Origin: Sphingomonas sp. BT-65
GTDB lineage: Bacteria; Pseudomonadota; Alphaproteobacteria; Sphingomonadales; Sphingomonadaceae
Reading direction: 5' to 3'
DNA length: 64,000 bases
Assembly: GCF_026107375.2 (NCBI RefSeq)
Contig: NZ_JAPCIA010000003.1
Span: forward strand, 186,001-250,000
This document shows, one piece after another, positions 15,509 through 59,453 of this stretch. The position numbers and the translations under genes were made by a program. Under the pieces are notes generated by a model. It saw nothing but the letters and a program-made list of their open reading frames with translations. It was not told the origin of the DNA and ran no database searches. How positions within the stretch are numbered: position 1 is the stretch's first letter; each line of letters begins with the position of its first letter.

Positions 15509-15523
15509 TTCGATCAAATAAAT
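15509..15523 (-). promoter_or_regulatory. Weak copy (9/12) of the shared ATTnATCnGATnAAT operator
   Basis: On the minus strand the site reads ATTTATTTGATCGAA. It lies 70 bp upstream of the sugar-porter start and about 130 bp upstream of manA, in an AT-rich patch of an otherwise GC-rich spacer. This is one of the weakest of nine sites and could be only a promoter-associated AT patch. Confidence 0.35.
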
Positions 15524-15655
15524 TAATTTTAGTTATTATCTTGACGCCGACGGTGCGGGCGAGGCAGGCTGCAAACATCGGGTGCATCGCGCTGCGCGGG
15601 TGCTTCCGGCATCGCCTGACCCGCAATGGCGGGCGGGAAGCGTAAGGAGGGGCTG

Positions 15656-16489
15656 GTGCCAGCGACATTGCTTGCGACCCATCGCGTCGAAAAACCGTGG
15701 GGGCGGCGGCAATTGCGGGCCCCGTTCGGCGATTCGGCGGCGGATGGCGAGCCGGTCGGCGAGATCTGGTTTCAGGCGCCCGGCGACACGGCGCCCGACC
15801 TCCTCATCAAATATCTGTTCACCAGCGAAAAGCTGTCGGTGCAGGTGCATCCCAATGACGAACACGCGCACGTCCGCGGCCTGCCGCGCGGCAAGGATGA
15901 ATGCTGGCTGATCCTCGATGCCGGACCCGGCGCGACGATCGCGCTCGGTACCAAGACGCCGGTCGACAAGACGGCGCTGCGCGCAGCGGCGCTCGACGGC
16001 AGCATCGAACAGTTGCTCGACTGGAAGCCGGTCAAGGCGGGCGACTTCTTCTACGTCCCCTCGGGCACGGTGCATGCGCTCGGCGCTGGGCTGACACTGA
16101 TCGAGGTGCAGCAGAATAGCGAGACGACCTACCGGCTCTATGACTATGGGCGCCCGCGCGAGCTGCATCTCGACGATGGCGTCGCCGTTGCTGATGCGCG
16201 GCCCTACACGCCCTACCGGTCGCCCGCCCGCGTCGATGACGGCAGCGCGATCCTTGTCGACGGGCCGAAGTTCGCGCTCGAGCGGTTTCCCGGCGGCGAT
16301 TGGACGATTGCGGTCCCCGCTGACGGTACCGCGTGGCTGATCCCGGTCGCGGGCGAGGGGCTGGCCGATGGCGTCGCCTTCAAGGCAGGCGAATGCCTCG
16401 CGCTGACCGGTACCGCGCAGATCGCCGCCGATGCCGATGCGGACCTGCTGCTTGCCTACCCCCTGGAAGGACAATCGAATGACCGATAG
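15656..16489 (+). CDS. manA: Class I mannose-6-phosphate isomerase
   Basis: This 277-residue cytoplasmic enzyme interconverts mannose-6-phosphate and fructose-6-phosphate, feeding mannose into glycolysis. Zinc-site residues are visible: Gln63 and His65 in SVQVHPNDEH, Glu82 in KDECWLIL, and His140 in VPSGTVHALGAG. This is the short form of the family. I chose GTG 15656 because AAGGAGG sits 5-6 nt upstream. An in-frame ATG 30 bp earlier overlaps no ribosome binding site. The last codons overlap the start of the next gene (ATG 16479), implying translational coupling with the transporter. In this locus it would act downstream of the ROK sugar kinase at 32918. Confidence 0.92.
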   Translation: MPATLLATHRVEKPWGRRQLRAPFGDSAADGEPVGEIWFQAPGDTAPDLLIKYLFTSEKLSVQVHPNDEHAHVRGLPRGKDECWLILDAGPGATIALGTKTPVDKTALRAAALDGSIEQLLDWKPVKAGDFFYVPSGTVHALGAGLTLIEVQQNSETTYRLYDYGRPRELHLDDGVAVADARPYTPYRSPARVDDGSAILVDGPKFALERFPGGDWTIAVPADGTAWLIPVAGEGLADGVAFKAGECLALTGTAQIAADADADLLLAYPLEGQSNDR

Positions 16490-22357: not shown

Positions 22358-22372
22358 ATTTATTTGACAAAT
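22358..22372 (+). promoter_or_regulatory. Copy (10/12) of the shared operator upstream of TonB receptor 1
   Basis: The site reads ATTTATTTGACAAAT, itself a near-palindrome, 115 bp before the TonB-receptor start in a 294-bp spacer. The rest of the spacer is GC-rich and holds nothing else I can identify. Confidence 0.45.
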
Positions 22373-39096: not shown

Positions 39097-39138
39097 TATG
39101 ATTTTCCTCCCCCATTTATCGCTTGAGAGATATATAAG

Positions 39139-43517: not shown

Positions 43518-44264
43518 TTGGCTACGGAGCTATCATCGCTGACGCGTGGCGAGGAGCGGCCCGAACTCGGCCGCAACCTGACCTATGGTCTGCTCGACAA
43601 TCTCGGCCGCGCGATCGTCACCGGGCGGTTCGAGCAGGAGGCGTTCCCGACCGAGGCGGAACTGGCCAAGCAGCATGGCGTCAGCCGTTCGGTCACGCGC
43701 GAGGCGGTCAAGATGCTCACCGCCAAGGGCCTGCTCAGCGCGCGTCCGCGCCAGGGCACGGTGGTGCAGCCGACCACGTCATGGAATCTCTTCGACACCG
43801 ACGTGCTGCGCTGGCTGCTCGAACGGCAATTCTCGGTCGAGCTGCTGAAGCAGTTCAACCAGTTGCGCGTCGCGATCGAGCCCGAGGCGGCGGCGCTTGC
43901 CGCGCGGTTCGCGGACGAGAACGACGTGCAACGAATCAGCGAGGGCCTGGAACGCATGAAGGCGGCCGAGCGTGGGCTCGACGATACGCTCGAGGCCGAT
44001 ATCGCCTTTCACGTCGCGATCCTGCGCGGATCGGGCAATCCGTTCTATGCGCAGTTCCGCGATGTCGTGACCACCGCGCTGCGCACGTCGATCCGCTTCA
44101 CCAACCGGATCAAGGGCCGCACCGCAAGCGTGACGGACCACGCCGCGGTGCGCGACGCGATCGTAGCGCGTGATCCGGACAGGGCGCGGATCGCGATGCG
44201 CGATCTGATCGGCGACGTGCTCGAACTGATCGACAAGGCCGAGGGCAAGGCGCTGCCGGGCTGA
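43518..44264 (+). CDS. GntR-family regulator, FadR/DgoR-like
   Basis: This 248-residue repressor has an N-terminal winged HTH (FPTEAELAKQHGVSRSVTRE, about residues 43-62) and a helical FCD ligand-binding domain. The linker SWNLFDTDVLRWLLE and QLRVAIEPEAAALAA closely resemble E. coli DgoR, the galactonate repressor. Metal/ligand residues of FCD domains are present in EADIAFHVAIL and DHAAVRDAI. It probably senses galactonate, KDGal or a related sugar acid and controls the divergent symporter-dgoK-dgoA-FGE operon. It is also the best candidate for the nine shared operator sites in the window. The start is TTG 43518 with AAGGCGGG upstream, and it is not certain. The stop lies 6 bp from the convergent GH43 stop. 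Confidence 0.88.
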   Translation: MATELSSLTRGEERPELGRNLTYGLLDNLGRAIVTGRFEQEAFPTEAELAKQHGVSRSVTREAVKMLTAKGLLSARPRQGTVVQPTTSWNLFDTDVLRWLLERQFSVELLKQFNQLRVAIEPEAAALAARFADENDVQRISEGLERMKAAERGLDDTLEADIAFHVAILRGSGNPFYAQFRDVVTTALRTSIRFTNRIKGRTASVTDHAAVRDAIVARDPDRARIAMRDLIGDVLELIDKAEGKALPG

Positions 44265-44270: not shown

Positions 44271-45206
44271 TCAGCCCATCGTGACCGGCGCGATCCTGTG
44301 GTCGCGCCCGTAGGTGATCGGCTGCACGACGGTCCTGCGCTGCCCGCGATAGGGCCCGTTGCCGCTCTGCCCCTCCCAGCGATGATAGGCGATGTACCAG
44401 CGGCCGTTGGCATCGTGCAGGAACGCGTGATGCCCGGGTCCCTTGAAGCGCGCGTCGCTCGTCAGGATCGCGCCGTGGTAGCGCCAGGGGCCGGTGGGCG
44501 AGGGGGCGGTCGCATAATGGACCGAATAGGATGCGTGGCGCCAGGAGCCGTGCGAGTAGGACAGATAATAAACGCCGTCGCGCTCATGCATGAAAGCGCC
44601 TTCAGTGAACTGCGGCGGCGTCTTGACCGGGATCTCGCGGTCGATCGTCACCATGTCCGGCTTGAGCAGCCATAGCCGCAGCGTCGCGCCCGCGCTGCCG
44701 CCGGCATAGAGATAGCGTTTGCCGCTGCGGCGATCGATGAACACGGCCGGGTCGATCGCCTCGAAGCCGTCGCCCCCGGTCACGAGCGGCTCGCCGCTGT
44801 CGACGCAGGGACCGCCTGGCCCCGCGCAGACGGCGACGCCGATCCGGCTCGGCGTCGGGTTCTGCGGCCCGACCGAATAGAAGAGATAGTGGCGCCCATT
44901 GGCCGCGACCATGTCGGGCGCCCACAGCGAATGGCTTGGCGCGCCATCGTCGCCGATCCAGCGGATCGCGTCGAGGCGCAGCAATTCGGGGCCGCGCTGC
45001 CAGCTTTTCAGATCATCGCTGGTCCAGGCGTAGAGACGTGTTGCACCCCCATCGCCGCTGTTGGTCGGATAGATCCAGTAGCGCCCGCCGGCCGCCTCGA
45101 TATCGGGATCGGCACCGGCGAACGACCGCGCCTGCTCGGGCGCCGCCGCCGCGCCGGCGAGCAGCGCGGCGGCGGTGAGTGCGAAGACGGTCCGCTTGAC
45201 CGTCAT
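44271..45206 (-). CDS. GH43-family glycosidase B, exported
   Basis: This 311-residue five-bladed propeller has a Sec signal (TVFALTAAALLAGAAAA). Catalytic residues by family pattern are Asp in FAGADPDIEAA, Asp in FEAIDPAVFID and Glu in FTEGAFMHERDG. Propeller signatures include HSLWAPDMVAANGRHYLFYS and YYLSYSHGSW. Likely activities are arabinofuranosidase or exo-beta-galactosidase type, and the substrate is not determinable here. It starts 7 bp after the mutarotase stop and is the last gene of the dehydratase-mutarotase-GH43 operon, so it probably supplies the sugar that the pathway consumes. Confidence 0.87.
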   Translation of the reverse strand: MTVKRTVFALTAAALLAGAAAAPEQARSFAGADPDIEAAGGRYWIYPTNSGDGGATRLYAWTSDDLKSWQRGPELLRLDAIRWIGDDGAPSHSLWAPDMVAANGRHYLFYSVGPQNPTPSRIGVAVCAGPGGPCVDSGEPLVTGGDGFEAIDPAVFIDRRSGKRYLYAGGSAGATLRLWLLKPDMVTIDREIPVKTPPQFTEGAFMHERDGVYYLSYSHGSWRHASYSVHYATAPSPTGPWRYHGAILTSDARFKGPGHHAFLHDANGRWYIAYHRWEGQSGNGPYRGQRRTVVQPITYGRDHRIAPVTMG

Positions 45207-45213
45207 GACCGGA

Positions 45214-46374
45214 TCAGCGCTTGCGGCCGGGCGTGGCGCCCGAGCTGAAACGATAGGTCATGACGTTGCGATAGGTCTGGCCCGGATCCAGCCGCGCGCT
45301 CGGGAAGCCCTTCTGGTTGGGAGCGTCGGGGAAATTCTGCGGCTCGAGCACGATAGCGTCGCCCATCCGGTAGATTTTCCTCGACTTGCCGTAGCTGGTC
45401 GCGTCGAAGAAATTGCCCGAATAGAACTGGATGCCCGGCTGGTTCGACCAAAGCTCGAACCCCCGGCCGGACGCCGGGTCATGGACCTTCGCCATCAGCT
45501 GCTGGCCGGGGATCACCTTGCGGCCGACCACCCAGTTGTGATCGTAACCGCGGCCGAACACGATCTGCTGGTCGCGCGCGTCGCGCACGCGATCGCCGAC
45601 CGCGCGGGGCGTGCGGAAGTCGAACACGGTACCCGCCACCGAACGGAACTCGCCGGTCGGGATCGCGCCGTCATCGGTAGGCAGATAGGTCTGGGCGGGG
45701 ATGGTCAGCAGATGCCCCATCGCACCGTTCGACGCGCCCTCGCCCGACAGATTCCAATAGGCGTGGTTGGTCAGGTTGACGACGGTCGACTTGTCGGTGG
45801 TCGCGACATATTCGATCGTCAGCTGGTTCTTCTCGTCGAGCGAGTGGATCGCGTCGACGGTCAGCGTGCCGGGATAGCCCATCTCGCCGTCGCGGCTGAC
45901 ATAACGGAAGGTCACCGACGCGGTCGGGCCGCTCTTCACCGAGACGACATCCCACAGCACCTTGTCGAAACCCTGGGTTCCGCCGTGCAGGGCATTCTTC
46001 CCGTTGTTGACGGGAGTCTGATAGGTCTTGCCGTCGATCTTGAAGCGGCCTTCGGCAAGGCGGTTGCCGAACCGGCCGACGATCCCGCCGAAATATTGCG
46101 GCTTCGTCTCGTAGAGACCGATATTGTCATAGCCGAGCGCGACATCGGCCTTCTTGCCGTTGCGGTCGGGCAGCACCACCGACTGGATCGTAGCACCATA
46201 GGCGATCAGCGTCACCGAGACGCCGCGTCCGTTGGTGAGCGTGACCGAAGCGACGTCGCGCCCATCGGCCAGCTTGCCGAAGGTGCCGCGCTTGGCCGTC
46301 GCGGCCTCGGCGCTGCCCGCCGCGAGGCAAGCCGTCGCCGCGGCGGCGAGAAGAAGTGCGCTTTTGCGTGCCAT
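45214..46374 (-). CDS. galM: Aldose 1-epimerase (galactose mutarotase), exported
   Basis: This enzyme interconverts alpha and beta anomers of galactose or related aldoses. The 386-residue protein has a signal peptide (MARKSALLLAAAATACLAAG) and is therefore periplasmic. Active-site residues are visible: His204 in NLTNHAYWNLSG and Glu344 in LEPQNFPDAPNQKGFP. Other motifs are YGATIQSVVLPDR, GIVGRFGNRLAEG, NALHGGTQGFDK and GYDHNW. ATG 46374 is 11 nt after AGGAG. An in-frame ATG at 46383 sits too close to it. It is followed by the GH43 at 7 bp and preceded by the sugar-acid dehydratase. It would deliver the anomer needed by the symporter or by the 1-dehydrogenase. Confidence 0.92.
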   Translation of the reverse strand: MARKSALLLAAAATACLAAGSAEAATAKRGTFGKLADGRDVASVTLTNGRGVSVTLIAYGATIQSVVLPDRNGKKADVALGYDNIGLYETKPQYFGGIVGRFGNRLAEGRFKIDGKTYQTPVNNGKNALHGGTQGFDKVLWDVVSVKSGPTASVTFRYVSRDGEMGYPGTLTVDAIHSLDEKNQLTIEYVATTDKSTVVNLTNHAYWNLSGEGASNGAMGHLLTIPAQTYLPTDDGAIPTGEFRSVAGTVFDFRTPRAVGDRVRDARDQQIVFGRGYDHNWVVGRKVIPGQQLMAKVHDPASGRGFELWSNQPGIQFYSGNFFDATSYGKSRKIYRMGDAIVLEPQNFPDAPNQKGFPSARLDPGQTYRNVMTYRFSSGATPGRKR

Positions 46375-46454: not shown

Positions 46455-48263
46455 TCAATGGCTGTCGCGCGGCAGGCCGCGGGTCTGCGCGATCCGCTGA
46501 TATTTGACCGCGAGCTCGATCACCGCGCCGCCCTCGAACTGGCCGGTGACGTTGCGATGGATTTCCTGCCACGGCGTCTGCGACGGCGGCACATAGTCCG
46601 GCGTGTCGGCGAGCGCGGCGCGGCGGCGATCGAGTTCCTCCATATCGACGAGCATGTCGGCGGTGCGCTTGCCGAGATCGATGCGGATGCGGTCGCCGGT
46701 CCGCACCAGCGCGAGGCCGCCGCCGACCGCCGCCTCGGGCGCGGCGTTGAGGATCGACGGGCTGCCGCTCGTCCCCGACTGGCGCCCGTCGCCAAGGCAG
46801 GGCAGGGCGTTGACGCCGGCGCGGATCAGGGTCGCGGGCGGACGCATGTTCACCACCTCCGCGCCGCCCGGATAGCCGATCGGCCCGGCACCGCGCATGA
46901 TCAGGATCGAGCGGTCGTCCGCGCCGAGCGCGGGATCGTCGATCCGCGCATGATAATCCTCCGGCCCGTCGAACACGATCGCGGTGCCCTCGAACGCCTC
47001 CGGATCGTCCGGATTGGAGAGATAGCGCGCGCGGAATTCGGGCGAGATCACGCTGAGCTTCATCACCGCATGATCGAACAGGTTGCCCGACAGTACGGTG
47101 AGGCCGGCGGCGGGCTTCAGCGGATCGGCGAGTGGACGGATCACGTCGGCGTCGAGCGTGTCGGCGGCGCCAATATTCTCGGCCAGGGTCCGCCCATTGG
47201 CGCTCGGCGCGTCGCCGTCGATGAGGCCGGCGCGGTAGAGTTGGCCCATCACCGCGGGCACGCCGCCGGCGCGGTAGAAATCCTCGCCAAGATAACTGCC
47301 GGCGGGCTGGAGGTTGACGATCAGCGGCACCTCGGCGCCGTGCGACTCCCAATCCTCCAGGGTCAGCTCGACGCCGATATGGCGGGCGATCGCATTGAGA
47401 TGGATCGGCGCGTTGGTCGATCCGCCGATCGCCGAATTGACGCGGATCGCGTTGAGGAAGGCTTCCCGCGTCATGATGTCCGACGGCTTGCGATCGGCAT
47501 TGACCATCTCGACGATCTGCAGGCCGGTGCGATAGGCGTTTTCCTGCCGGTCGCGATAGGGCGCGGGGATCGCGGCCGAGCCGGGCAGCGACATGCCGAG
47601 CGCTTCGCACAGCGAATTCATCGTCGTCGCGGTGCCCATCGTGTTGCACCAGCCAGTCGAGGGGGCGGAGGACGCCACCAGCTCGACGAAGCCCTTATAG
47701 TCGATCTCGCCCGCCGCGAGCATCTCGCGCGCCTTCCAAACGATCGTGCCGGATCCAGTGCGCTCCCCCTTGAACCAGCCATTGAGCATTGGGCCGACCG
47801 ACAGCGCGATCGCCGGGATGTTCACCGTGGCGGCGGCCATCAGACAGGCCGGCGTCGTCTTGTCGCAGCCGATCGTCAGCACAACGCCGTCCATCGGGTA
47901 GCCGTAGATCGATTCGACCAGGCTCAAATAGGAGAGGTTGCGGTCGAGCCCTGCGGTGGGGCGCTTGCCGGTCTCCTGGATGGGATGCACCGGAAATTCG
48001 ATCGCGATGCCGCCCGCCTCGCGAATGCCCTCGCGCACGCGCTTGGCCAGTTCGAGATGGTGGCGGTTGCACGGCACGAGATCGCTGCCGGTCTGCGCGA
48101 TGCCGATGATCGGGCGATTGGACTGCAACTCTTCCAGGCTGATGCCGTAATTCAGGTAACGCTCGACATACAGCGCTGTCATGTCCGGATTGTCCGGATT
48201 GTCGAACCATGCGCGCGAGCGCAAATTACGCGGTTCGTTCTTGCCGTGCCCCAACGTCGTCAC
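46455..48263 (-). CDS. IlvD/EDD-family sugar-acid dehydratase (galactonate/arabinonate/xylonate type)
   Basis: This enzyme removes water from an aldonic acid to give a 2-keto-3-deoxy acid, the substrate of DgoK. The sequence follows the Caulobacter xylonate dehydratase (XylD) type: [92 protein letters not shown], and a C-terminal AVKYQ. The Fe-S cysteines are Cys65, Cys133 and Cys206. The frame is open to a TTG at 48335 with no ribosome binding site. I prefer GTG 48263 (602 aa), which matches the family N-terminus and has GGAAG upstream. With DgoA and DgoK nearby, D-galactonate is the most likely substrate, but the family also uses arabinonate, fuconate and xylonate. Confidence 0.88.
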
Positions 48264-48351: not shown

Positions 48352-48366
48352 ATATATCGTATAAAA
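48352..48366. promoter_or_regulatory. Copy (10/12) of the shared operator between dehydratase and dehydrogenase
   Basis: ATATATCGTATAAAA lies 10 bp upstream of the 1-dehydrogenase start and 88 bp upstream of the preferred dehydratase start. The AT-rich run could also be a -10 element. Either reading fits a divergent promoter for two enzymes of the same pathway. Confidence 0.4.
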
Positions 48367-48376: not shown

Positions 48377-49300
48377 GTGGACAGGATCAGGATTGGGCTC
48401 GTCGGAATCGGAAAGATCGCGCGCGATCAGCATCTGCCGGCGCTAGCCGCGTTGCCGGATTTCGAGCTTGCCGCTACGGCGAGTCGGCATGGCCGCGTCG
48501 ATGGCGTGCGCGGCTATTCGTCGATCGCCGAGATGCTGGCGGGCGAACCGGAGATTACGGCGGTATCGCTGTGCACGCCACCCGAGGGACGTTTCGAGCA
48601 GGCGGTCACCGCGATCCGCGCCGGCAAGCACCTGATGCTCGAGAAGCCGCCCACGGCAACCGTGTCGGAAGCGGAAGCGCTCGCCGCTCTGGCGCGGGAA
48701 CAGGGCGTGACGTTGTTCGCGACCTGGCATTCGCGCGAAGCGGCCGAGGTGGATGCCGCGCGCGACTGGCTGGCGGACAAGCGAATCGGGGCGGTGCGCA
48801 TCCGCTGGATGGAGAATATCCGCCAATGGCATCCGGGGCAGGACTGGATCCTGGCGCCCGGCGGTTTCGGCGTGTTCGATCCGGGGATCAACGCGCTGTC
48901 GATCGCGACGCGCATCCTGCCGCAGCCGCTGACGGTGCTGAGCGCGACGATGGACGTGCCGGCCAATCGCGCCTGTCCGATCGCGTCGGCGATCAGGTTC
49001 CGCAGCGGGGACGCCGAGGTCGATGCGCAGTTCGACTTCCTCCAGACCGGTCTGCAGACCTGGCATATCGAGGTGGAGACCGATGGCGGGCTGCTTCGTC
49101 TGACCGACGGTGGGTGCAAGCTCGAACTGCCCGGCCGGGAACCGATCAGCGGGCCGAACGAGGAGTATCCGCGCCTCTATGCCGGCTTTGCCAAGCTGGT
49201 GCGTGACGGCCGCAGCGATGTCGACTTGCGGCCGATCCAGCTCGTCGCGGACGCGTTCCTGGTGGCGGATCGGCGGACGACCGAAGCGTTCGAGTTCTGA
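48377..49300 (+). CDS. D-galactose / L-arabinose 1-dehydrogenase (Gfo/Idh/MocA family)
   Basis: This enzyme oxidises C1 of the free sugar with NAD(P)+ to the lactone, the first step of the oxidative pathway. The 307-residue sequence closely follows the Azospirillum L-arabinose 1-dehydrogenase: [53 protein letters not shown] with catalytic Lys90, [37 protein letters not shown]. Those enzymes accept both L-arabinose and D-galactose. GTG 48377 has AGAGG 6 nt upstream. It is divergent from the dehydratase. No lactonase gene was found in the window. Confidence 0.9.
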
Positions 49301-49542: not shown

Positions 49543-50679
49543 TCAGCGGCGCGGGCCGTTGGCTTCGGTGGTGAGCTTCTTGATCAGGTCGACTTCGGCC
49601 TGGCGATAGGGCTTGCCGTTGGCGCGCAGCACTTCGTGGAACCAGATCGTCGGCTCGTCCATCGTGTAGGGCTTCTTCCAGCTGTCCCACGGCAGACGGG
49701 TCTGCGACTTGCCGTCGACGAAGCCCCAGTTGATCATCGCGATCTTGTATTTCTTGCCGAGCGGGAGCGAGCCGTCGAAAGTCGAGCCGTTGCCGCGCGC
49801 CATATATTCGGTGGCGAGCACCGGGCGGCCATAGCCCAGCATCTGCTTGGCCCGCTCCTCGAACTTCTCCGGCCAGTTATAGTCGTGGAAGCTCATCACG
49901 TCGGACTGTGCGACCTGGATCTTCTCGACCGCGTCGAGCTTGTCCGCCTGATCCCAATGATTGCCGATCCACAGGCCGCTGGTCAGCGGCTGGGATGGGT
50001 CGGCGCTGCGCGCCCATTCGAACACCGGGCCGAGCAGGCTAGCGACCAGCGCGACCTTGTTCGGCGTCGCCTTGTAGGCGCCGCCGCCGCCGCCCTGGTT
50101 GTTGGGCTCGTTCCACACGTCCCACACGACGATGCGCTTGTCGTTGGCGAAGTGGCCGACCACGTCCTTCACATAGGCTTCGAGCTTGTTGTACTGGCTC
50201 TTGTCGGCGAGGCGCGCGGCGCCCGGCGCCTGCATCCAGCCCGAATTGTGGACGCCCGGAATCGGCGGGCGCTGACGCCCCGACACCGGATCGGGATCCC
50301 AGCAGCTGTCGAACAGCACGAACATGATGCGGATCTTGTGCTTGTCCGCGATCTGCAGGAACGTCTCCATCCGCTGCTTGAGGCCGGCGGCATCCTCCTC
50401 CCACAGCAGGTTGTGGAGGTAGACGCGCATCACGTTCATGCCCATCGCCGAGGCCCAGCCGAGTTCCTCGTCGATCTCCTTGGGGTTGAAGGTGTCGGCC
50501 TGCCACATCTCGAACTGGTTGATTGCGCTGCGGTTGTTGTAGTTGGCGCCGACCATCCAGGGCTGCTTGGCGTACCAGCCATTCGCCTGTTCCTTCGACC
50601 ACATCTCCCGCGCATCAGCGGGGAGGGCGGCGCAGACGGCCAGGGCGGCGGCGCCTGCGAGCAGCAGCAGATTCTTCAT
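49543..50679 (-). CDS. GH5-like (clan GH-A) glycoside hydrolase, exported
   Basis: This 378-residue TIM-barrel protein has a Sec signal (MKNLLLLAGAAALAVCAALPADA). Clan GH-A catalytic residues are clear: acid/base Glu191 in VVWDVWNEPNNQ and nucleophile Glu291 in VLATEYMARGNGS. Supporting motifs are MGANYNNR-like MVGANYNNRSAINQ, GMNVMRVYLHNLLWE, MFVLFDSCWDPDP and MSFHDYNWPEKF. Subfamily and substrate are not clear, since cellulase, mannanase and xylanase annotations all occur for such sequences. ATG 50679 has AGGA 8 nt upstream. It is divergent from TonB receptor 3, with an operator copy in front of each. Confidence 0.75.
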   Translation of the reverse strand: MKNLLLLAGAAALAVCAALPADAREMWSKEQANGWYAKQPWMVGANYNNRSAINQFEMWQADTFNPKEIDEELGWASAMGMNVMRVYLHNLLWEEDAAGLKQRMETFLQIADKHKIRIMFVLFDSCWDPDPVSGRQRPPIPGVHNSGWMQAPGAARLADKSQYNKLEAYVKDVVGHFANDKRIVVWDVWNEPNNQGGGGGAYKATPNKVALVASLLGPVFEWARSADPSQPLTSGLWIGNHWDQADKLDAVEKIQVAQSDVMSFHDYNWPEKFEERAKQMLGYGRPVLATEYMARGNGSTFDGSLPLGKKYKIAMINWGFVDGKSQTRLPWDSWKKPYTMDEPTIWFHEVLRANGKPYRQAEVDLIKKLTTEANGPRR

Positions 50680-50848: not shown

Positions 50849-50863
50849 AATTATCTGATTTAT
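50849..50863 (+). promoter_or_regulatory. Copy (10/12) of the shared operator on the GH5 side
   Basis: AATTATCTGATTTAT keeps the ATC-T-GAT core of the perfect site exactly. It lies 170 bp upstream of the GH5 start. Confidence 0.5.
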
Positions 50864-51023: not shown

Positions 51024-51038
51024 ATTTATATGATTGAT
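51024..51038 (+). promoter_or_regulatory. Copy (10/12) of the shared operator upstream of TonB receptor 3
   Basis: ATTTATATGATTGAT lies 91 bp upstream of the receptor start. It keeps the left ATT arm and the GAT half of the core. Confidence 0.45.
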
Positions 51039-51128: not shown

Positions 51129-53924
51129 ATGCGACTGGAATTTCTGCTGACGGCATCGCTTGCCGCGCTCGTCACCGCTACGCCCGCAACCGCGCAGGAT
51201 GCGGCTGCTCAAGACAATGCCGCATCAACGCAGGCTCAGCCCGCCGAGGGGGATGGCGAGGCGATCGTTATCACCGGCGTGCGCCAGTCGCTCGAGCGCG
51301 CCGCCGAGGTGAAGCGCAATGCCGTGCAGGTGGTCGACTCGATCGTCGCCACCGATATCGGCAAGCTGCCCGATCCCACCGTGGCCGCCGCGCTGCAGCG
51401 CGTGCCCGGCATCCAGGTGCAGAACGACCGCAACAACGAATTGACGAGCGTGCGCATTCGCGGCCTCACGGACATCCTGACCACGGTGAACGGGCGGGAG
51501 GTCATCACCACGACGGGGCGCGGCTTCGACCTCCAGGACGTGCCGGCCGAAGCGCTGGCGCGAATCGATGCCTTCAAGTCGCAGACCGCAGACCAGATCG
51601 AGGGCGGCGTCGCCGGCGCGCTCGACCTGCGCCTCAACCGTCCCTTCAACTTTCGCAAGCCGACGCTGGTGCTGACGGCGCGCCAGAACTACGCGACCAT
51701 CGGCGATACGAGCAATCCGCAGTTCGGCGTGCTCGCCGCAGGCAAGACGGATAGCCCGATCGGCGAGATCGGCGCACTGGTCAACGCGACCTATTCGCAT
51801 GCCAAGAACATCCGCAGCGTCACCAACCTGAGCGAGCGCCGCTATGGCGGTGGCGCGCCGCTCAACGCGCCCGGGCTGCTCGTGCCGCAGGTGCTGCGCA
51901 ACATGCCCGATGTCGGCGAGATCGATCGCGCGCAGGTCAACGCGGCGGTGCAATGGCAGGCGACGCCGTCGCTTCAGGTCTATGCCGACGGCCTCTACAC
52001 CTATTTCCGCAGCACCACCGGTTTTGCCGGGTTCAATCCGCAGCCCTTCACCAACAATTCGCGGATCTCGGAGATCACGGCCAGCGACTATTGCTTCGAT
52101 GCACGGGTCAATGCGGGCGGCACCAATCCCCAGCTGATCAACAATGCCGACGGCACGGTCTCACTCCAGCCTTTCACCGTTCAGCGCGTGTGCGAGCTCA
52201 AAAGCGCGCGCTTCGACAATGTCGTGATCAACCAGAACTCCTCGTCCGAGCAGATCACCCAGCGCAACAAGATGATCGCCGGCGGCCTCAACTTCGAGCA
52301 GGATCGGGCCAAGCTGGTGCTCGACGTCGCCTACCAGACCTCGCGCTCCTTCAACGAGAATTTCAACGCCGAAGTCGGCCAGCGCATCCCGACGATCTTC
52401 GTCGTGCTGGACGACGACAATGGCCCGTCCTTCACGGTCGATCCGTCGATTCCGCTGCGCGCGACCAACCTGTCGCTGCGCAACTCGATCAACCAGAATT
52501 TCACGCTGGGGCAGGGCGAGCTGTTCCAGGCACGGCTCGACGGCGAGTATGAGGTCGGTGGCATCCTGCCCAAGGTGAAGGCTGGCCTGCGCTACGCCAA
52601 GCGCGAGGCGCGCTTCCAGGAAGTGCGGCAGACCAACACGGTGCAGTCGATCGGGTTCGGCAATATCGGCACCCCCACCGAGGCCAATGCGCGGCTGATC
52701 TCGAGCCTGCCGCTGTCGCCCGACTTTCTCGGCGTGATCGGGGTGGCACCGCGACTCAACGGCGGCGTGCCGTTCCTCGGCGTCAATCCCGAATATCTGC
52801 GGTCGGAGCAGGGCCGCAACGAGCTGCGCGCGCTGTTCAACCTTCCGCTGCGGCAGCCCGATTACGACCCGACCAAGGAATTCAACGCCGACGAGACGAC
52901 CTATGCCGCCTATGTCGAGGGCAGCTACGAGATTCCGCTGGGATCGCTCACGCTCGACGGCGTGGTCGGCGCGCGGGTCGTCAAGACCGAGCGCTCGATC
53001 GCGGGCTTCCAGCGGACCGGCGGCACCATAAGCCCGGTGGCGGCCGAGACTTCGGATACCGACTTCCTGCCCGCCGCGACCGCGCGGCTCAAGATCCCGG
53101 GCGGCTTCCAGACGCGTCTCACCTATTCACGCTCGATGCGGCGGCCCGATTTCGCGTCGCTCAACCCGGCGGAGTCGCTGACGCTGGTGGGCAACGTGTT
53201 CCTGCTCAACACCGGCACGCGCGGGAACCCCGATCTGCGGCCGCAAAAGTCCGACAGCATCGACCTGACCGCAGAATATTATTTCGGCAGCGGCTATATC
53301 GCGGTGACCGGCTACTACCGCTCGATCAAGGATCGCGTCGTCACTTCCAACGCCCAGGAGACGATCGACGGGCTCGACTATCTGATCTCCACCCCGCGCA
53401 ACGTCGGCTCGGTGACTCTCAAGGGAATCGAGGCCAGCGCGCAATATTTCTTCGATTTCCTGCCGGGCGCGCTGTCCGGGTTCGGCGTCCAGGGCGCGTT
53501 CACCCTCGCGGATTCGGAGATTGGGGGCGACGATACGCTGGCCGGCACTCCGCTGGTGGGCGTATCGAAATACAATTACACGGCCGGTCTGCTCTATGAC
53601 AAAGGCGGTCTCAGCGGCCGCCTGATCTGGACCTATCGCTCCAAATATCTCAACGCCGACAATACTGGCGGCGTGGCACTGCGGCCGTTCGATCCGGATC
53701 GGGTGAACGAAGCCTATGTGCCGGTATTCCTGTCCTATGTCCGGCCCGCCGGGCGTCTGGACTTCAGTATCGGCTATGACGTGACCGAGGCGCTGCGCAT
53801 CGATATCGGCGGCACCAACATCCTGCGCAACAAGACCTCGACCTATTGGGGTGACGAGCGAGTGGTGCTGGGGCTGCAGGGGGACGAGACGGTCTATACG
53901 GTCGGCGCGCGGATCAAGTTCTGA
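51129..53924 (+). CDS. TonB-dependent outer-membrane receptor 3
   Basis: This 931-residue receptor has a signal peptide (MRLEFLLTASLAALVTATPA to TAQ), a TonB-box-like EAIVITGVRQSLE, and a plug containing IVATDIGKLPDPTVAAALQR, SVRIRGLTDILTTVNGRE and GGVAGALDLRLNRPFNF. The barrel ends TVGARIKF. ATG 51129 is preceded by GGGGGAGGA. A sulfatase starts 35 bp after its stop, so the two probably form one transcript. Together with two further sulfatases downstream this makes a sulfated oligosaccharide the likely cargo, an inference from context. Confidence 0.93.
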   Translation: MRLEFLLTASLAALVTATPATAQDAAAQDNAASTQAQPAEGDGEAIVITGVRQSLERAAEVKRNAVQVVDSIVATDIGKLPDPTVAAALQRVPGIQVQNDRNNELTSVRIRGLTDILTTVNGREVITTTGRGFDLQDVPAEALARIDAFKSQTADQIEGGVAGALDLRLNRPFNFRKPTLVLTARQNYATIGDTSNPQFGVLAAGKTDSPIGEIGALVNATYSHAKNIRSVTNLSERRYGGGAPLNAPGLLVPQVLRNMPDVGEIDRAQVNAAVQWQATPSLQVYADGLYTYFRSTTGFAGFNPQPFTNNSRISEITASDYCFDARVNAGGTNPQLINNADGTVSLQPFTVQRVCELKSARFDNVVINQNSSSEQITQRNKMIAGGLNFEQDRAKLVLDVAYQTSRSFNENFNAEVGQRIPTIFVVLDDDNGPSFTVDPSIPLRATNLSLRNSINQNFTLGQGELFQARLDGEYEVGGILPKVKAGLRYAKREARFQEVRQTNTVQSIGFGNIGTPTEANARLISSLPLSPDFLGVIGVAPRLNGGVPFLGVNPEYLRSEQGRNELRALFNLPLRQPDYDPTKEFNADETTYAAYVEGSYEIPLGSLTLDGVVGARVVKTERSIAGFQRTGGTISPVAAETSDTDFLPAATARLKIPGGFQTRLTYSRSMRRPDFASLNPAESLTLVGNVFLLNTGTRGNPDLRPQKSDSIDLTAEYYFGSGYIAVTGYYRSIKDRVVTSNAQETIDGLDYLISTPRNVGSVTLKGIEASAQYFFDFLPGALSGFGVQGAFTLADSEIGGDDTLAGTPLVGVSKYNYTAGLLYDKGGLSGRLIWTYRSKYLNADNTGGVALRPFDPDRVNEAYVPVFLSYVRPAGRLDFSIGYDVTEALRIDIGGTNILRNKTSTYWGDERVVLGLQGDETVYTVGARIKF

Positions 53925-53958: not shown

Positions 53959-55368
53959 ATGACGATGAAGCGGGTATTCAGGGCGGCGGTGATCGCTGCC
54001 GCCTCAGCGGGGGCGCTGTCGGTCGCCTCGGCGCAGCAGGCCGAGGCCCAGGCGCGGCCGAACATCGTCGTCTTTCTAGCCGACGACATGGGCTATCAGG
54101 ATTTCGGCGCGGCGGGCGACCGCAATGTCCGCACGCCCAATCTCGACAAGCTGGCGGCAGAGGGGCTGAGCTTCGATCGCGCCTTCGTCGCATCGCCGAG
54201 CTGCGCGCCGAGCCGCGCGGCGCTGCTCACCGGCTACATGCCCTCGCGCAACGGCGCCGAGGGCAATCACGAGATTCCGACCACGGGCGTGCCCAAGCTG
54301 CCCGCATATCTGCGCTCGCTCGGCTATCAGGTCGTCGCGTTCGGCAAGGTCGCGCACTACCAGACCACCGGCATGTACGGCTTCGACCGGTTCGAGCACG
54401 ACACGTTCCACGATCCCGACGCGGTGACCTCGGCACTCAAATGGCTGAAGGGTCGCACCGACAAGCGGCCGCTGGCGATCTTCGTCGGCAGCAACTGGCC
54501 GCACGTCCCGTGGCCCGAGACCAGCGAAGGCTATGCGCCCGACAAGGTGACCCTCCCGGCCAAGTCGGTCGACCTGCCGATCACCCGCGACGCGCGCACG
54601 CGTTACTATGCGGCGGTCTCACGGATGGACAAGGAACTGGGCGAGACGCTCGACCTGGTCGACCGCAAGCTCGGCAAGAACAGCTTCGTGCTGTTCTCCG
54701 CGGATCACGGCGCGCAATGGCCGTTCGGCAAGTGGAACCTCTACGACACCGGCACGCGCGTGCCGATGGTGGTGCGCTGGGCGGGCAAGGTGCGGCCGGG
54801 CACGAAGACCGGTACGATGGTGAGCTGGGTGGACATCCTGCCCACGCTGGTCGAGGTCGGCGGCGGCGAGGCGCCGATGGAGATTGACGGGCGCTCGTTC
54901 GCGGGCGCGTTCGGACCCGATGCGGCATCGTTCAAGGGGCGTTCTGAAATCTACACGACGCACAACAGCGACCTGAAGATGAACGTCTATCCGATGCGCA
55001 GCGTGCGCACGGCGAAGTGGAAATATATCGCGAACCTCCACCCCGAATATGTCTTCACCACGCATATCGACCTGCAGCCGCGCAAGGATGCGGGCGGCTA
55101 TTTCCCGGCGTGGCGGCGCGCGGCGCAGACCGACCCGAAGGCGCGCAAGATCGTCGACCAATATTATCACCGGCCGGCCGAAGAGCTCTATGACCTCGAG
55201 TCCGATCCCGGCGAGACGCGTAACCTCGCCGCCGATCCCAAATATCGTTCGGTGATCAGCGAGCTGCGCCTCAAGCTGGCGGGCTGGCGCGAGTCGCAGA
55301 AGGATGACCGGCCGCACAAGCACACGCCGCACCGCACCGAAGGACCGATCGACGGCCTGAAGGAATAG
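53959..55368 (+). CDS. Type I (formylglycine) sulfatase 1
   Basis: This 469-residue alkaline-phosphatase-superfamily sulfatase hydrolyses sulfate esters. It has a signal peptide ending around AQQAEAQA, the metal site NIVVFLADDMGYQDFG, and the signature SPSCAPSRAALLTG with Cys82 as the formylglycine precursor. Next comes GKVAHYQTTG, then the second metal cluster VLFSADHGAQWPFGKW and LYDTGTRVPMVV. The C-terminal DLESDPGETRNLAADP region is typical of S1 sulfatases. ATG 53959 has GGAAGG upstream. An ATG at 53965 is an alternative. It follows TonB receptor 3 closely and requires a maturase, supplied by the FGE gene at 39268. Substrate position and sugar are unknown. Confidence 0.92.
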   Translation: MTMKRVFRAAVIAAASAGALSVASAQQAEAQARPNIVVFLADDMGYQDFGAAGDRNVRTPNLDKLAAEGLSFDRAFVASPSCAPSRAALLTGYMPSRNGAEGNHEIPTTGVPKLPAYLRSLGYQVVAFGKVAHYQTTGMYGFDRFEHDTFHDPDAVTSALKWLKGRTDKRPLAIFVGSNWPHVPWPETSEGYAPDKVTLPAKSVDLPITRDARTRYYAAVSRMDKELGETLDLVDRKLGKNSFVLFSADHGAQWPFGKWNLYDTGTRVPMVVRWAGKVRPGTKTGTMVSWVDILPTLVEVGGGEAPMEIDGRSFAGAFGPDAASFKGRSEIYTTHNSDLKMNVYPMRSVRTAKWKYIANLHPEYVFTTHIDLQPRKDAGGYFPAWRRAAQTDPKARKIVDQYYHRPAEELYDLESDPGETRNLAADPKYRSVISELRLKLAGWRESQKDDRPHKHTPHRTEGPIDGLKE

Positions 55369-55379: not shown

Positions 55380-56660
55380 CTACGCGGCATCGGTGCGGGG
55401 CAGCAGGCGGTCGATCGCCAGCACGCCGAGCGCCGATGCGGTGATGCACAGCGCGAGGAACAGCATCGGTGCGAGCGCGCTGCCGGTGGCCTCGCCGATC
55501 CGCGGCACGATCGTCTGGGCGACGAAGCCGCCGAGATTGCCGACCGAGTTGATCGCCGCGAAGCCGGCCGCCGCCCCGGCGCCGGTCAATACCCGCGACG
55601 GAAGCGTCCAGAAGATCGGCTGCCCGGCGAAGATCGCCGCCGCGGCGATGCACAGGGCGGCGAACTTGAGCGGCGCCCCGGGCAACAGCGTGGCCGCGAC
55701 CAGGGCGGCGGCGGCCACGAGCGCGGGGATCGCAATATACCAGCGTTGTCCCGGTTTCCCTGCGGCCCGGCGCGGCAGCCACCACAAGGCAGCGGCGACG
55801 CAGATCCACGGAATGACGTTGAGCAGCCCGTTCGCGCCGTTGCTCACCCCGAAGCCGCGCACGATCGTAGGCAGCCAGTAGCTCAACCCGTAAGCGGCCA
55901 GCGGGAACCCGGCGAATGCGGCGCAGAGCGCGAGCACGCGCGGATCGCGCAGTGCGCGCAGCGGATTGGCGTGCAGGTCGGGCCGCTGCTCGCTGGCGAG
56001 CTCGCGCGCCAGCCATTGCTTCCCGGCATCGGGGAGCCAGCGCGCGGCCGCCGGCCCGTCGGGCAGCCAGCGCAGCACGGCGGGAACGAGGGCGACCGCG
56101 GGGATGCCGGTGACGATGAACACCCATTGCCAGCCGCGCAGGCCGCCAAGCCCGTCGAGCTCGAGCAGCAGCCCGCCGATCGCCGCGCCGACCGCGTTGG
56201 CGAACGCGCTGGCGATCAGGAAGATGCCGATCGCCCGGGCGCGGTGCCGCTGCGGGAACCACAGGGTCAGCGCATAGAGCACGCCGGGAAAGAACCCGGC
56301 CTCGGCCACGCCGAGCAGGAAGCGCAGGACGTAGAAGCTCTCCAGCGACCAGGCGAAGCCGAGCGCGATCGTCACCAGGCCCCAGGCGCCGATGATGCGC
56401 GCGAACCACAGCCGCACGCCGACGCGCGCGAGGATCAGGTTGCTCGGTATTTCGAACAGGCAATAGCCGATGAAGAACAGCCCGGCGCCGAGCCCATAGG
56501 CCGCCTCGCTCATGCCGAGGTCGCCGACCATTTGCAGCTTGGCGAAAGAGACGTTCTGCCGGTCGATATAGGCGACCATGTAGAGCAGGCAGAGGAACGG
56601 CATCAGCCGCCAGAAAATGCGGCGGATCGTCGCCGTCTCCAGCATGACGTCAGGGTTCAC
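55380..56660 (-). CDS. ACS-family MFS transporter (sugar acid type)
   Basis: This twelve-segment inner-membrane symporter of about 426 aa belongs to the anion:cation symporter family, which includes galactonate, hexuronate and phthalate transporters. Motifs are LCLLYMVAYIDRQNVSFAKLQM in the first helix (YxDRxNxxFA type), GYCLFEIPSNLILARVG and RFLLGVAEAGFFPGVLYALT. The start is probably GTG 56660, overlapping the stop of the upstream GH43 (GTGA). An internal ATG lies at 56645. Being coupled to a GH43, it likely imports the product or an oxidised sugar. Specificity is unknown. Confidence 0.85.
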   Translation of the reverse strand: MNPDVMLETATIRRIFWRLMPFLCLLYMVAYIDRQNVSFAKLQMVGDLGMSEAAYGLGAGLFFIGYCLFEIPSNLILARVGVRLWFARIIGAWGLVTIALGFAWSLESFYVLRFLLGVAEAGFFPGVLYALTLWFPQRHRARAIGIFLIASAFANAVGAAIGGLLLELDGLGGLRGWQWVFIVTGIPAVALVPAVLRWLPDGPAAARWLPDAGKQWLARELASEQRPDLHANPLRALRDPRVLALCAAFAGFPLAAYGLSYWLPTIVRGFGVSNGANGLLNVIPWICVAAALWWLPRRAAGKPGQRWYIAIPALVAAAALVAATLLPGAPLKFAALCIAAAAIFAGQPIFWTLPSRVLTGAGAAAGFAAINSVGNLGGFVAQTIVPRIGEATGSALAPMLFLALCITASALGVLAIDRLLPRTDAA

Positions 56661-57721
56661 GGGCGGGTTCCGGAGGGCTTGCGCAGTCGTTGCGTCATCG
56701 GCGCCGGCGGCCCGATGCGCGGCTCGCCCGCGGCGGTCCACTCGATCCGCTGCATGTGCGGCGCGCGCCTGGCGGTGCAGCCCATGCCGGCACGCGGGTT
56801 GGCGTGATAGACGATCCACTGCTCGCGCCGGTCGGGCGAGGTGAAGAAGCCGTTATGGCCGGTCGCGAAGACGCCGTTGCCGCTGCGCAGCACGGGCTGC
56901 GGATGCTTGGTCCAGGTCGCCGGATCGAGCAGGTCGCCCCCGCGTTTCGCCGCGAGCAGGCCGAGCGCGTAATCGTCCGACCAGCAGGCGCCCGCCGAAT
57001 AGCTCATGAAGAGGCGGCCGGTTGCGCTCTCGAGGAATTGGGGGCCTTCGAGAATCTTGCGGCCGCCGCGGTCTTCCCACGGCTTGTCGGGCCGGGCGAT
57101 CACGCGCTCGGGGCCAGTCAGGGTCCACGGGTTCGCCATGCGGGCGATGGCGAGGCCGCTGACCTTGCCGATATAGGGGGAGTAGGCGAAATACCATGTG
57201 CCGTCCCGCTCGAAGACGGTGCCGTCAATCCCGGCGCGTGCGGTGTTGACCCGGCCGCGGTCAACCCATTCGCCTTCGAGCGGGTTGGCCATGTCATTCT
57301 CCAGCACGAAGATCGCGCGATGGGCATCGTCCTTGAAGCCCGCGGCGGTCGCTGAATAGTAGAGATACCATTTGCCGTCGATGCGGTGCAGCTCGGGCGC
57401 CCAGATCGAATGGGCATTGGGCCCGGAGGCAGGGGGCGTCCACACCACGCGATGCTCGGCATCAGCGAGGTTCGTGATGTCGGCGGTGCGCCACAGCGCG
57501 ATGCGGTTCCCGAGCGTGTGGGTGTAATAATAGATGCCGTCATGCGCGATCACCCAGGGGTCGGGGCCTGATTGCAGGATCGGATTGGTGAAGGTCGCGT
57601 CCGCGGCCTGCGGGTCACGGGCAACGGCTGGCGGTGTGGAGAGCGCGAGCAGGGCGAATGCGGCGGCGATGCGAGCGGCGGTGCGCCTGATGTTGGAACC
57701 CGAGCGGCCTTCAGCGTGCAT
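56657..57721 (-). CDS. GH43-family glycosidase C, exported
   Basis: This 354-residue propeller has a signal peptide (RIAAAFALLALSTPPAVA). Catalytic residues by family pattern are Asp in QSGPDPWVIAHDG, Asp in ARAGIDGTVFERDG and Glu in KILEGPQFLESATG. HSIWAPELHRIDGKWYLYYS and FMSYSAGACWSDDYALG are typical of GH43 arabinofuranosidase-like enzymes. ATG 57721 is preceded by GGAGAGG at 6 nt. It is coupled to the ACS transporter downstream by a GTGA overlap and is divergent from sulfatase 2, with an operator-like site between them. Confidence 0.88.
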   Translation of the reverse strand: MHAEGRSGSNIRRTAARIAAAFALLALSTPPAVARDPQAADATFTNPILQSGPDPWVIAHDGIYYYTHTLGNRIALWRTADITNLADAEHRVVWTPPASGPNAHSIWAPELHRIDGKWYLYYSATAAGFKDDAHRAIFVLENDMANPLEGEWVDRGRVNTARAGIDGTVFERDGTWYFAYSPYIGKVSGLAIARMANPWTLTGPERVIARPDKPWEDRGGRKILEGPQFLESATGRLFMSYSAGACWSDDYALGLLAAKRGGDLLDPATWTKHPQPVLRSGNGVFATGHNGFFTSPDRREQWIVYHANPRAGMGCTARRAPHMQRIEWTAAGEPRIGPPAPMTQRLRKPSGTRP

Positions 57722-57787
57722 GCCAATCCTCTCCAAAATCGATTGCGGAACATCGTGCGCCGGTGCATGGAGTGTATGACTTGTATT

Positions 57788-57802
57788 TATTATCATATCA
57801 AT
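57788..57802 (+). promoter_or_regulatory. Copy (9/12) of the shared operator between GH43-C and sulfatase 2
   Basis: TATTATCATATCAAT lies 66 bp upstream of the GH43 start and 15 bp upstream of the sulfatase start. The right AAT arm and ATC half are kept. It is a weaker match within a short AT-rich divergent promoter region. Confidence 0.35.
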
Positions 57803-57817: not shown

Positions 57818-59389
57818 GTGACGGGTGGGATGACGCGGCGCTTCGTTCTTCTCGCGGGTACCGCCATACTCGCGGCGCCCGCGCTGGCCGCCGCGCCCTC
57901 GCGCAAGCCCAATGTCATCGTGATCTATGCCGACGATCTCGGTTACGGCGATCTCAGCTGCTACGGATCCAAAACGATCCGTACGCCGCATCTCGACCGC
58001 TTGGCGGCGCGCGGCACGCGCTTCGTCAACGCGCATTCGCCCTCGGCGACCTGCACGCCCTCGCGCTACGCCTTGCTGACCGGCGATTATGCGTGGCGCG
58101 CCTCGGGCACGCAGATCCTGCCGGGCGACGCGCCTGCGATCATCCGGCCCGGCCGGTTCACGCTGTCCGCGATGCTCAAGCAGGCGGGCTATGCGACGGG
58201 CGTGGTCGGCAAATGGCATCTGGGCCTCGGCGACGGCAAGGTCGACTGGAACGGCGAGATCGCGCCGGGCCCGCTCGATATCGGCTTCGACTATGGCTTC
58301 TTCATGCCCGCGACGCTCGATCGCGTGCCGACGGTGCTGATCGAGAATCGCCGCGTCATGAACCTCGATCCGGCCGACCCGATCAAGGTCGACTACAAGG
58401 CCAAGGTCGGCGACGAGCCGATCGGCGCCGAGCATCCGGACCAACTCAAGTTCGGCGCCGATCCCGAACATTCGAACACGATCGTCAACGGCATCAGCCG
58501 CATCGGCTATATGGCCGGGGGCAATGCGGCGCGCTGGAAGGACGAGGAGCTGACCGATTTGCTGCTCGGCAAGGCGGTCGAGTACGTGACGGCGCGCAAG
58601 GACGGTCCGTTCTTCCTCTATTTCGCGATGAACGAGCCGCATGTGCCGCGCGCGCCGCATCCGCGCTTCGCGGGCAAGTCCGGCATGGGGCCGCGCGGCG
58701 ACACCATCCTCCAGCTCGACTGGACGGTGGGCGAGCTGATGCGCCGGCTCGAGGAGCTGGGCATCGCGGACGATACGCTGGTCGTGTTCAGCAGCGACAA
58801 CGGCCCGATCCTGTTCGATGGCTATGCGGACCGGGCGGTCGAGCTGGCCGGCGATCACCGCATGTCGGGGCCGTATCGCAGCGGCAAGTACAGCATCTTC
58901 GAGGGCGGCACGCGCGTACCGATGATCGTCAGCTGGCCGGGGCAGGTCCGCGCGGGGCATGTGTCGCGCGCGGTGATCAGCCATGTCGATCTGATCGCCA
59001 CGCTTGCGGCGCTGGTCGGACAGTCGTTGCCGGCCGATCAGGCGGTGGACAGCTTCGACCTGTTGCCCGCGCTGCTCGGGCAGAGCGAGCGCGGGCGCGA
59101 CCATGTCGTGCAGGACACCAAGCTGATGGTCACGAGCGGCACGACGGTCGCGAGCAGCGGCGCGCGCATTCTCGCGCTTCGCGCCGGAGACTGGAAATTC
59201 ATCCGCGGCAGCGTGGCGCCGCACGAATTCCACGGCAACCCGATCGGCACCGTGCTGCGGCATCAGCTCTACGACCTGGCGAATGACCCCGGCGAGCGCA
59301 GCGATCTCGCGGCCAGGCTGCCCGACCGGACCAAGGCGATGGCCGCCCGGCTCGACAAGATCGAACGCGACGGCCGCAGCCGGCCCTAA
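57818..59389 (+). CDS. Type I (formylglycine) sulfatase 2
   Basis: This 523-residue S1 sulfatase has the metal site NVIVIYADDLGYGDLSCYG, the signature SATCTPSRYALLTG with Cys79, GVVGKWHLGLGDGKVDW, FLYFAMNEPHVPRAPH, VVFSSDNGP and FEGGTRVPMIVSWPG. The KWHLGLG and NEPHVP motifs resemble galactose- or GlcNAc-6-sulfatase-like members, but specificity cannot be fixed. The N-terminus TRRFVLLAGTAILAAPALAA is twin-arginine-like. GTG 57818 has GAGGGGG 5-6 nt upstream. ATG 57830 is an alternative. It is followed by sulfatase 3 after 92 bp. Confidence 0.92.
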   Translation: MTGGMTRRFVLLAGTAILAAPALAAAPSRKPNVIVIYADDLGYGDLSCYGSKTIRTPHLDRLAARGTRFVNAHSPSATCTPSRYALLTGDYAWRASGTQILPGDAPAIIRPGRFTLSAMLKQAGYATGVVGKWHLGLGDGKVDWNGEIAPGPLDIGFDYGFFMPATLDRVPTVLIENRRVMNLDPADPIKVDYKAKVGDEPIGAEHPDQLKFGADPEHSNTIVNGISRIGYMAGGNAARWKDEELTDLLLGKAVEYVTARKDGPFFLYFAMNEPHVPRAPHPRFAGKSGMGPRGDTILQLDWTVGELMRRLEELGIADDTLVVFSSDNGPILFDGYADRAVELAGDHRMSGPYRSGKYSIFEGGTRVPMIVSWPGQVRAGHVSRAVISHVDLIATLAALVGQSLPADQAVDSFDLLPALLGQSERGRDHVVQDTKLMVTSGTTVASSGARILALRAGDWKFIRGSVAPHEFHGNPIGTVLRHQLYDLANDPGERSDLAARLPDRTKAMAARLDKIERDGRSRP

Positions 59390-59438
59390 TGTACAAATGC
59401 CGGGCGGTGCGCAACTAGCGCTTGCCTTCGCTCACGAT

Positions 59439-59453
59439 AATTATAAGATTTAT
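59439..59453 (+). promoter_or_regulatory. Copy (9/12) of the shared operator upstream of sulfatase 3
   Basis: AATTATAAGATTTAT lies 28 bp before the sulfatase start in a 92-bp gap. It is a weak match that could instead be an internal promoter. Confidence 0.35.

Follow-up and report, generated by a model that had tools for sequence, protein, structure and literature searches.

The 64,000-nucleotide stretch of Sphingomonas sp. BT-65 analysed here (contig NZ_JAPCIA010000003.1; C3:186001-250000 of a 4.08-Mb genome; 65% GC), called the window throughout, carries a polysaccharide island made of two halves, from 12.8 to 36 kb and from 36 kb onward. The second, named here the galactose (or galactose/sulfatase) half, is covered by seven copies of a 15-bp palindrome that are likely the operator set of a DgoR-like GntR regulator of the FadR subfamily. 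The proposed binder, a protein with a GntR winged helix-turn-helix (wHTH) and an FCD domain encoded at 43518..44264 on the plus strand, very probably recognises ATTTATmnkATAAAT and controls the galactose-half genes. A first-pass annotation of the same DNA had listed nine such 15-mers and suggested an island-wide regulon bound by this linked GntR protein. All nine 15-mers are present, and only one of its counts of matches to the 12 fixed bases was off (48352 has 9, not 10). Seven of them stand as one family, and the motif occurs in the gntR promoters of relatives and recurs before orthologous genes, which agrees with the linked regulator as the likely binder.

Predicted operators in the galactose half

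Counted with the plain consensus (up to three mismatches), the window gives 15 matches against 9.3 ± 3.5 expected, and 9 of 100 shuffles reach 15. This is barely above chance and an independent test was therefore needed. Close GntR orthologues were searched for in 298 genomes of the family and 33 loci of about 20 kb were taken around them. Palindromic expectation-maximisation was run on 280 bp at the gntR start (260 upstream and 20 inside) of 32 loci, with the window and L056, which has no gntR gene call, left out. The motif obtained de novo, ATTTATCnGATAAAT, is essentially the first-pass consensus, with a log-likelihood of 130 against 38-42 in six dinucleotide-shuffled sets. A site scoring above 8 is found in 20 of the 32 training promoters, which are not independent of each other (one genus contributes L035-L037, and a single genome both L038 and L064) and include one wrong upstream stretch (L048, where the gene call is too long).

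All site scores given below come from the matrix trained on these gntR promoters of other genomes. With it, the best eight positions of the window are eight of the nine first-pass sites, from 25.6 down to 18.3, and the seven operators take ranks 1-7. All eight lie outside genes (57788 given its hand-set gene start, see below), in a window in which our own gene calls leave only 3.8 of 64 kb intergenic. Intergenic matches of at least 12 number 16, compared with a mean of 0.59 and a maximum of 5 in 300 dinucleotide shuffles, and with a mean of 3.5 and a maximum of 14 for about 300 column-permuted matrices; at a cut-off of 8 two permuted matrices equal the real one, and at cut-offs of 10 and above the permuted ones do worse. 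The window holds 8 positions scoring at least 18. None is found in 40 other stretches of the same genome (773 kb, of which 91 kb are intergenic by our own calls; two of the stretches were chosen to cover pattern hits), and only two positions there reach 16. Seven further own-genome stretches (L068-L074), fetched for pattern hits, for a paralogous GntR gene or for adjacency to the window, are not part of this background; a position of at least 18 occurs in five of them. The weaker copies, for which the first-pass annotation had allowed that they might only reflect AT-rich promoters, score 20 to 22 with this independent matrix (48352, 57788 and 59439, with 9 of 12 matches each), which sets them apart from AT-rich noise.

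The highest-scoring predicted operator of the window, ATTTATCTGATTAAT at 43425..43439 (25.6), lies in the divergent promoter of gntR and of an SSS-family sodium/solute symporter gene (41744..43378, minus strand; Pfam PF00474; start from our own gene calls). As first noted, this perfect copy adjoins gntR, and it has the same place in orthologues. The predicted operator AATTATCAGATGAAT at 39139..39153 (20.3) is centred 50 bp before TonB receptor 2 (36370..39096, minus; TIGR01782 above cut-off) and is overlapped by a copy 9 bp off, at 39130 (16.9). Between the minus-strand gene of an IlvD/Edd-family dehydratase (46455..48254; Pfam PF00920; from its context likely a galactonate dehydratase) and the plus-strand gene of a Gfo/Idh/MocA dehydrogenase (48377..49300; Pfam PF01408; likely a galactose dehydrogenase, again from context) lies the candidate ATATATCGTATAAAA at 48352..48366 (22.4), with 18 bp between its centre and the GTG start of the dehydrogenase gene. 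Two further predicted sites fall in the 50.7-51.1 kb region: AATTATCTGATTTAT at 50849..50863 (21.9), on the side of a glycoside hydrolase gene (49543..50679, minus) and 177 bp from its start, and ATTTATATGATTGAT at 51024..51038 (21.5), before TonB receptor 3 (51129..53924, plus; PF00593 and PF07715). The hydrolase had been called GH5 at first; it gives a low-scoring GH10 match (PF00331, 29.2 bits, cut-off 22.1). The putative operator TATTATCATATCAAT at 57788..57802 (20.2) separates a GH43 gene (56657..57723, minus) from that of sulfatase 2 (57818..59389, plus; PF00884), and AATTATAAGATTTAT at 59439..59453 (22.3) precedes sulfatase 3 (59482..61074, plus; PF00884). Gene starts come from a simple codon-based caller, with two set by hand. 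The GH43 gene at 56657, which the caller missed, was added from the in-frame PF04616 match with an approximate start. The start of sulfatase 2, also approximate (GTG 57818 or ATG 57830), was shifted downstream of the called start at 57776 because the signal peptide begins later; the site at 57788 is intergenic only with this start, the called one placing it inside the gene.

At 39130, 51015 (with a neighbour score of 13.7 beside the 51024 operator) and 59448, a weak third half-site stands 9 bp from the palindrome. Over 69 profiled sites the mean half-site score is -6.4 at offset -9, compared with about -10.5 further out, and at offsets -9 and -10 a score above 4 is reached by 7-14% of the sites. 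That every operator includes a third half-site is only weakly supported, a minority of the profiled sites having one.

The galactose half further encodes 2-keto-3-deoxygalactonokinase (DgoK, 40875..41753, minus; Pfam PF05035), 2-dehydro-3-deoxy-6-phosphogalactonate aldolase (DgoA, 40249..40884, minus; NCBIfam NF006600 above cut-off), a formylglycine-generating-type sulfatase-modifying protein (39268..40182, minus; Pfam PF03781), another GH43 protein (44271..45206, minus; Pfam PF04616), aldose 1-epimerase (GalM, 45214..46374, minus; Pfam PF01263) and, 3' of TonB receptor 3, sulfatase 1 (53959..55368, plus; PF00884). At the edge of the island, at 1821-12506 on the minus strand, an RHS-repeat protein of 3561 residues with a C-terminal Tox-REase-7 domain is encoded.

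Conservation and presumed mode of action

The palindrome is conserved around orthologous regulators. Counting the training sites, the gntR loci of the family hold 63 matches of at least 18, spread over 26 of the 33 loci, and sites of at least 17 face SSS/gntR, dehydratase/dehydrogenase, TonB receptor, GalM and DgoK genes. The dehydratase/dehydrogenase pair carries a site in L035, L039, L042, L045, L050 and L058, and TonB receptor 3-like genes (38-39% identity) carry one in L035-L037 and L039. The regulator group occurs in Sphingomonas, Sphingopyxis, Novosphingobium, Sphingobium, Altererythrobacter and Pelagerythrobacter. Moreover, in 80 named orthologue loci retrieved solely on the basis of protein similarity (mostly from Sphingomonas, Sphingopyxis and relatives, with five records from Steroidobacter, Peristeroidobacter and Povalibacter), a site lies within 330 bp upstream of gntR in 68 at a score of at least 18 and in 74 at a score of at least 15. 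The named loci show the same recurrent targets; 141 of their 150 matches are intergenic, and their 139 intergenic 15-mers of at least 18 compare with a mean of 4.2 and a maximum of 53 for 200 permuted matrices. Across the 298 genomes, the strict motif is found in 14 of the 33 that have a close orthologue and in 26 of the other 265 (Fisher p 9e-6), while the reversed pattern, used as a control in the same genomes, makes no difference (3 of 33 and 37 of 265). Five regulator orthologues with 72-77% identity come from Steroidobacter, Povalibacter and Peristeroidobacter, which are not sphingomonads (L215, L217, L248, L252, L254); four of the five loci carry a site of at least 18 upstream of gntR, and joint transfer of regulator and operator may be involved.

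The GntR protein would control its own gene together with the symporter/DgoK/DgoA operon and the dehydratase and dehydrogenase pair, and also two TonB receptors, the glycoside hydrolase, a GH43 gene and sulfatases. Its action on these promoters would most likely be repression, lifted as a galactose-derived sugar acid builds up; a single intracellular catabolite might in this way open a route of galactan uptake and desulfation. Repression is preferred because the closest sites (18, about 24, 36 and 50 bp from start codons) fit it; for the other three window sites the distance from the centre to the closest start codon faced is 54, 98 and 177 bp, and in relatives the median distance is 62 bp (63 sites). 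It is also possible that the protein binds these sites and activates at some of them. The distance to the start codon is 86 to 177 bp for some sites, and in several relatives the site is just upstream of CTTGTC, a potential -35 box; upstream activation, on the other hand, has little room at sites with a start codon only 18 to 36 bp away, and E. coli DgoR is a repressor in the account of PMC12288454. We thus regard activation as unlikely. The CTTGTC element was observed a few bases past the operator, on the gntR side, at L035:8715, L059:9181 and L061:9476 and in the 43425 region of the window, and is possibly a -35 box.

The mannan half and sites elsewhere in the genome

The regulon is probably not island-wide as first suggested, because the two remaining sites, 15509 and 22358, lie in the other half and overlap a different promoter element. 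This half (12.8-36 kb), for which we infer the name mannan half, contains a ROK-family regulator (12826..14067, plus; PF00480, with a MarR_2 match just below cut-off), a sugar porter, four GH92 proteins, GH125, GH2 and GH43 proteins and TonB receptor 1. The first-pass annotation had placed sites before all three TonB receptors and before the manA/sugar-porter pair; the receptor at 22487 and this pair (15.5 kb) belong to the mannan half and go with the other element. The 15-mer at 22358..22372 (score 18.3) is part of the TonB-receptor-1 promoter element TTGACAAATTGnTTTTTATATTCTGAA, that at 15509..15523 (12.8, rank 17) overlaps CAAATAAATTAATTTT of the sugar-porter promoter, and both are probably not GntR operators, as the comparison with related promoters suggests.

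That all nine sites, mannan half included, form one GntR regulon is nevertheless worth weighing, since 22358 has the eighth-highest score of the window. L139, the closest relative, has ATTCAT at the equivalent of the left half-site of 22358; this still fits ATTnAT and for this reason raises the odds of a nine-site regulon slightly. In L141, L155 and L157 the half-site reads TTACAA, ATCCAA and ATTTAA, but TTGACAAATTG is conserved together with the T-run after it. Beyond the 15-mer, TTGACAAATTGCTTTTT(A/G)TATT is kept in the TonB-receptor-1 promoters of all four; L153 and L154, whose receptors are 81-82% identical, have a variant of the element, and no position in these loci has a GntR-type score of at least 17. 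Similarly, in 19 ROK-regulator loci of relatives (380 kb) no GntR-type site reaches 18 and two reach 17. The evidence on 15509 is thinner than on 22358: in the porter promoter of one close relative (L139, 81%) CAAATAAATTAATTTT is kept with GATC changed to GAAC. Finally, a separate motif, CAAATTGATTTTTTTATT, was obtained from 30 TonB receptor 1, porter and ROK promoters, the window included, with a log-likelihood of 197 against 76-81 in four shuffles. Its copies in the window are at 22367-22385 (plus), 15513-15531 (minus) and 12737-12755 (plus), and 10 of the 30 promoters have no such site. A nine-site regulon thus appears quite improbable. The element may in part be core promoter, and the ROK protein is perhaps its reader.

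Several observations weigh against the assignment of the palindrome to the island GntR protein. Two genome-wide pattern searches, whose patterns may miss further sites, found 14 sites of at least 18 in the roughly 4.0 Mb beyond the window, 4 of them of at least 20. Among family loci, 7 of 33 have no site of at least 18 in their 20-kb stretch. One of these is from the same genus with a 74% identical GntR protein (L038); the other gntR locus of its genome, L064, has two sites outside genes. Among named loci, 9 of 80 have no site of at least 18 anywhere and 12 have none upstream of gntR. In addition, a paralogous GntR protein (48% identity) could bind some of the same DNA. It is encoded at C1:2059839, in a second De Ley-Doudoroff cluster (C1:2040000-2079999; L172 and L173) whose dehydratase and symporter are 78% and 71% identical to those of the window, and whose sites have the form TTAAATnnkATTTAT, which varies from the window operator in its half-sites.

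Several of the 14 outside sites are near this paralogue or in the continuation of the island. The strongest found, C3:255603 (L073:6604; 26.2), is 5.6 kb past the window and upstream of a sulfatase-like gene; the regulon and the island therefore continue past the window end. Of the other outside sites of at least 20, one is inside the paralogous GntR gene and two are in stretches of 47% and 54% GC.

These data bear on the proposal that another regulator, such as the paralogue or an unlinked factor, binds the sites and that gntR is merely nearby. The related sites of the paralogue cluster speak for it, as does the similar sequence TTAAATCATATCTAA at 50884-50898; against it, gntR itself has the motif in its promoter in different genera, and strict matches go with the presence of a close orthologue in the genome, so that we give it only a slim chance. 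The sequence TTAAATCATATCTAA, which lies between both operators of the 50.7-51.1 kb region, makes cross-regulation by the paralogous GntR protein possible. That the sites are only the AT-rich promoter cores of a 65% GC genome, and share no regulator, is hardly credible. The plain consensus is weak and AT-rich stretches coincide with several sites, but the 91 kb of sampled intergenic DNA from elsewhere in the genome, with no match of at least 18, the permuted matrices (worse also in the named loci) and the recurrence before orthologous genes stand against it. Background and conservation largely refute it for the seven sites; for 15509 it may still hold.

We return to the seven-site regulon. On balance, we rather favour the view that one DgoR-type cytoplasmic sugar-acid sensor, reading a FadR-family operator in an AT-AT variant, took over the entire sulfated-galactan island in sphingomonads, from outer-membrane receptors to sulfatases, with an independently controlled mannan island beside it and a paralogue with a slightly shifted operator running the second galactose cluster of the same cell.

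The regulator and comparable systems

The GntR protein scores 47.5 bits with PF00392 and 86.5 bits with PF07729, in each case more than the cut-off, which places it in the FadR subfamily. None of the named FadR-type regulators of NCBIfam (NanR, LldR, PdhR, GlcC, UxuR, ExuR) was reached, the best being NanR with 87.5 against a cut-off of 260. The recognition helix and wing are near-invariant over 81 sequences; no residue was singled out by covariation with GT or AT half-sites, as helix and wing hardly vary. The equivalent of FadR Arg35 is presumably Ala47, found in 80 of the 81 sequences including that of the window. Of the solved structures, 7c7e is the closest in sequence (E 2.3e-28); we take it to be E. 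coli DgoR, its residues fitting the numbering of PMC7674646. In this hand-counted alignment, the pocket residues R102, D146, H150 and H195 (positions as given in PMC7674646) are identical, and Q173, R179, D184 and T191, where the alignment is gapped, are not. The linkage is of the DgoR type, with the dgoA and dgoK genes at 40249-41753 and with 63 DgoK-like and 64 DgoA-like genes in the 80 named loci. From context and domain family the DgoR-like label is reasonable, and the ligand would be a galactose-derived sugar acid, galactonate and KDGal being candidate effectors.

The operator has palindromic half-sites 3 nt apart (ATTTAT-n3-ATAAAT), found de novo by a search that itself imposed the palindrome. 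Its core is TTAT-n3-ATAA, not the TKGT-n3-ACMA given in PMC4494728 as the common FadR-subfamily consensus; this departure is compatible with the subfamily because the same source lists exceptions such as BioR. The best upstream sites in 81 stretches including the window, picked with an AT-favouring matrix, are AT/AT in 63, mixed GT/AT in 15 and GT/GT in one (TATTGTACGACAAAT, L224), with 2 stretches lacking a site. In the titles and abstracts surveyed, which do not extend to RegPrecise or supplements, no description of this operator in Sphingomonadales was found. Comparative genomics now supports an operator for a regulator group found in the six genera named above, by which genes for galactose/galactan uptake, including TonB receptors with no assigned substrate, could be assigned. 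It also tells apart two adjoining polysaccharide programmes. The drift of a GntR operator, moreover, lends itself to study in these orthologues, some of which have GT/AT and others AT/AT half-sites.

The regulon is a variation on a known kind of GntR regulon, not a new kind. As described in PMC12288454, E. coli DgoR represses through two inverted repeats over its own promoter and answers to D-galactonate. The island regulator resembles it in its GntR wHTH and FCD domains and in the position of its gene beside dgoK and dgoA; it differs in that the operator half-site is AT and not GT in most sites, that the sites are scattered over promoters including those of TonB receptors, glycoside hydrolases and sulfatases instead of one operon, that the transporter is an SSS symporter, and that only some of the ligand-pocket residues are conserved. 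In Halomonas, De Ley-Doudoroff genes and an SSS-family transporter were predicted as one DgoR regulon (PMC5507952), the same combination as in the island; the part of that source describing this regulon names no TonB receptors or sulfatases. BioR, an alphaproteobacterial GntR regulator with the operator TTATMKATAA (cited in PMC4494728), shares the TTAT...ATAA half-sites, as opposed to TKGT...ACMA, with the island operator. It has two central bases in place of three and, in the account of PMC5343134, controls biotin genes. GntR-family operators with extra half-sites are among those reported in PMC4494728, a feature that the weak third half-sites 9 bp away match in a minority of the 69 profiled sites. 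Like the carrageenan regulon of Zobellia galactanivorans (PMC5698469), the island regulon joins sulfatases, TonB uptake and galactose-derived sugars; the regulator tested there, unlike the island GntR protein, is described in that source as an AraC-family protein that acts positively.

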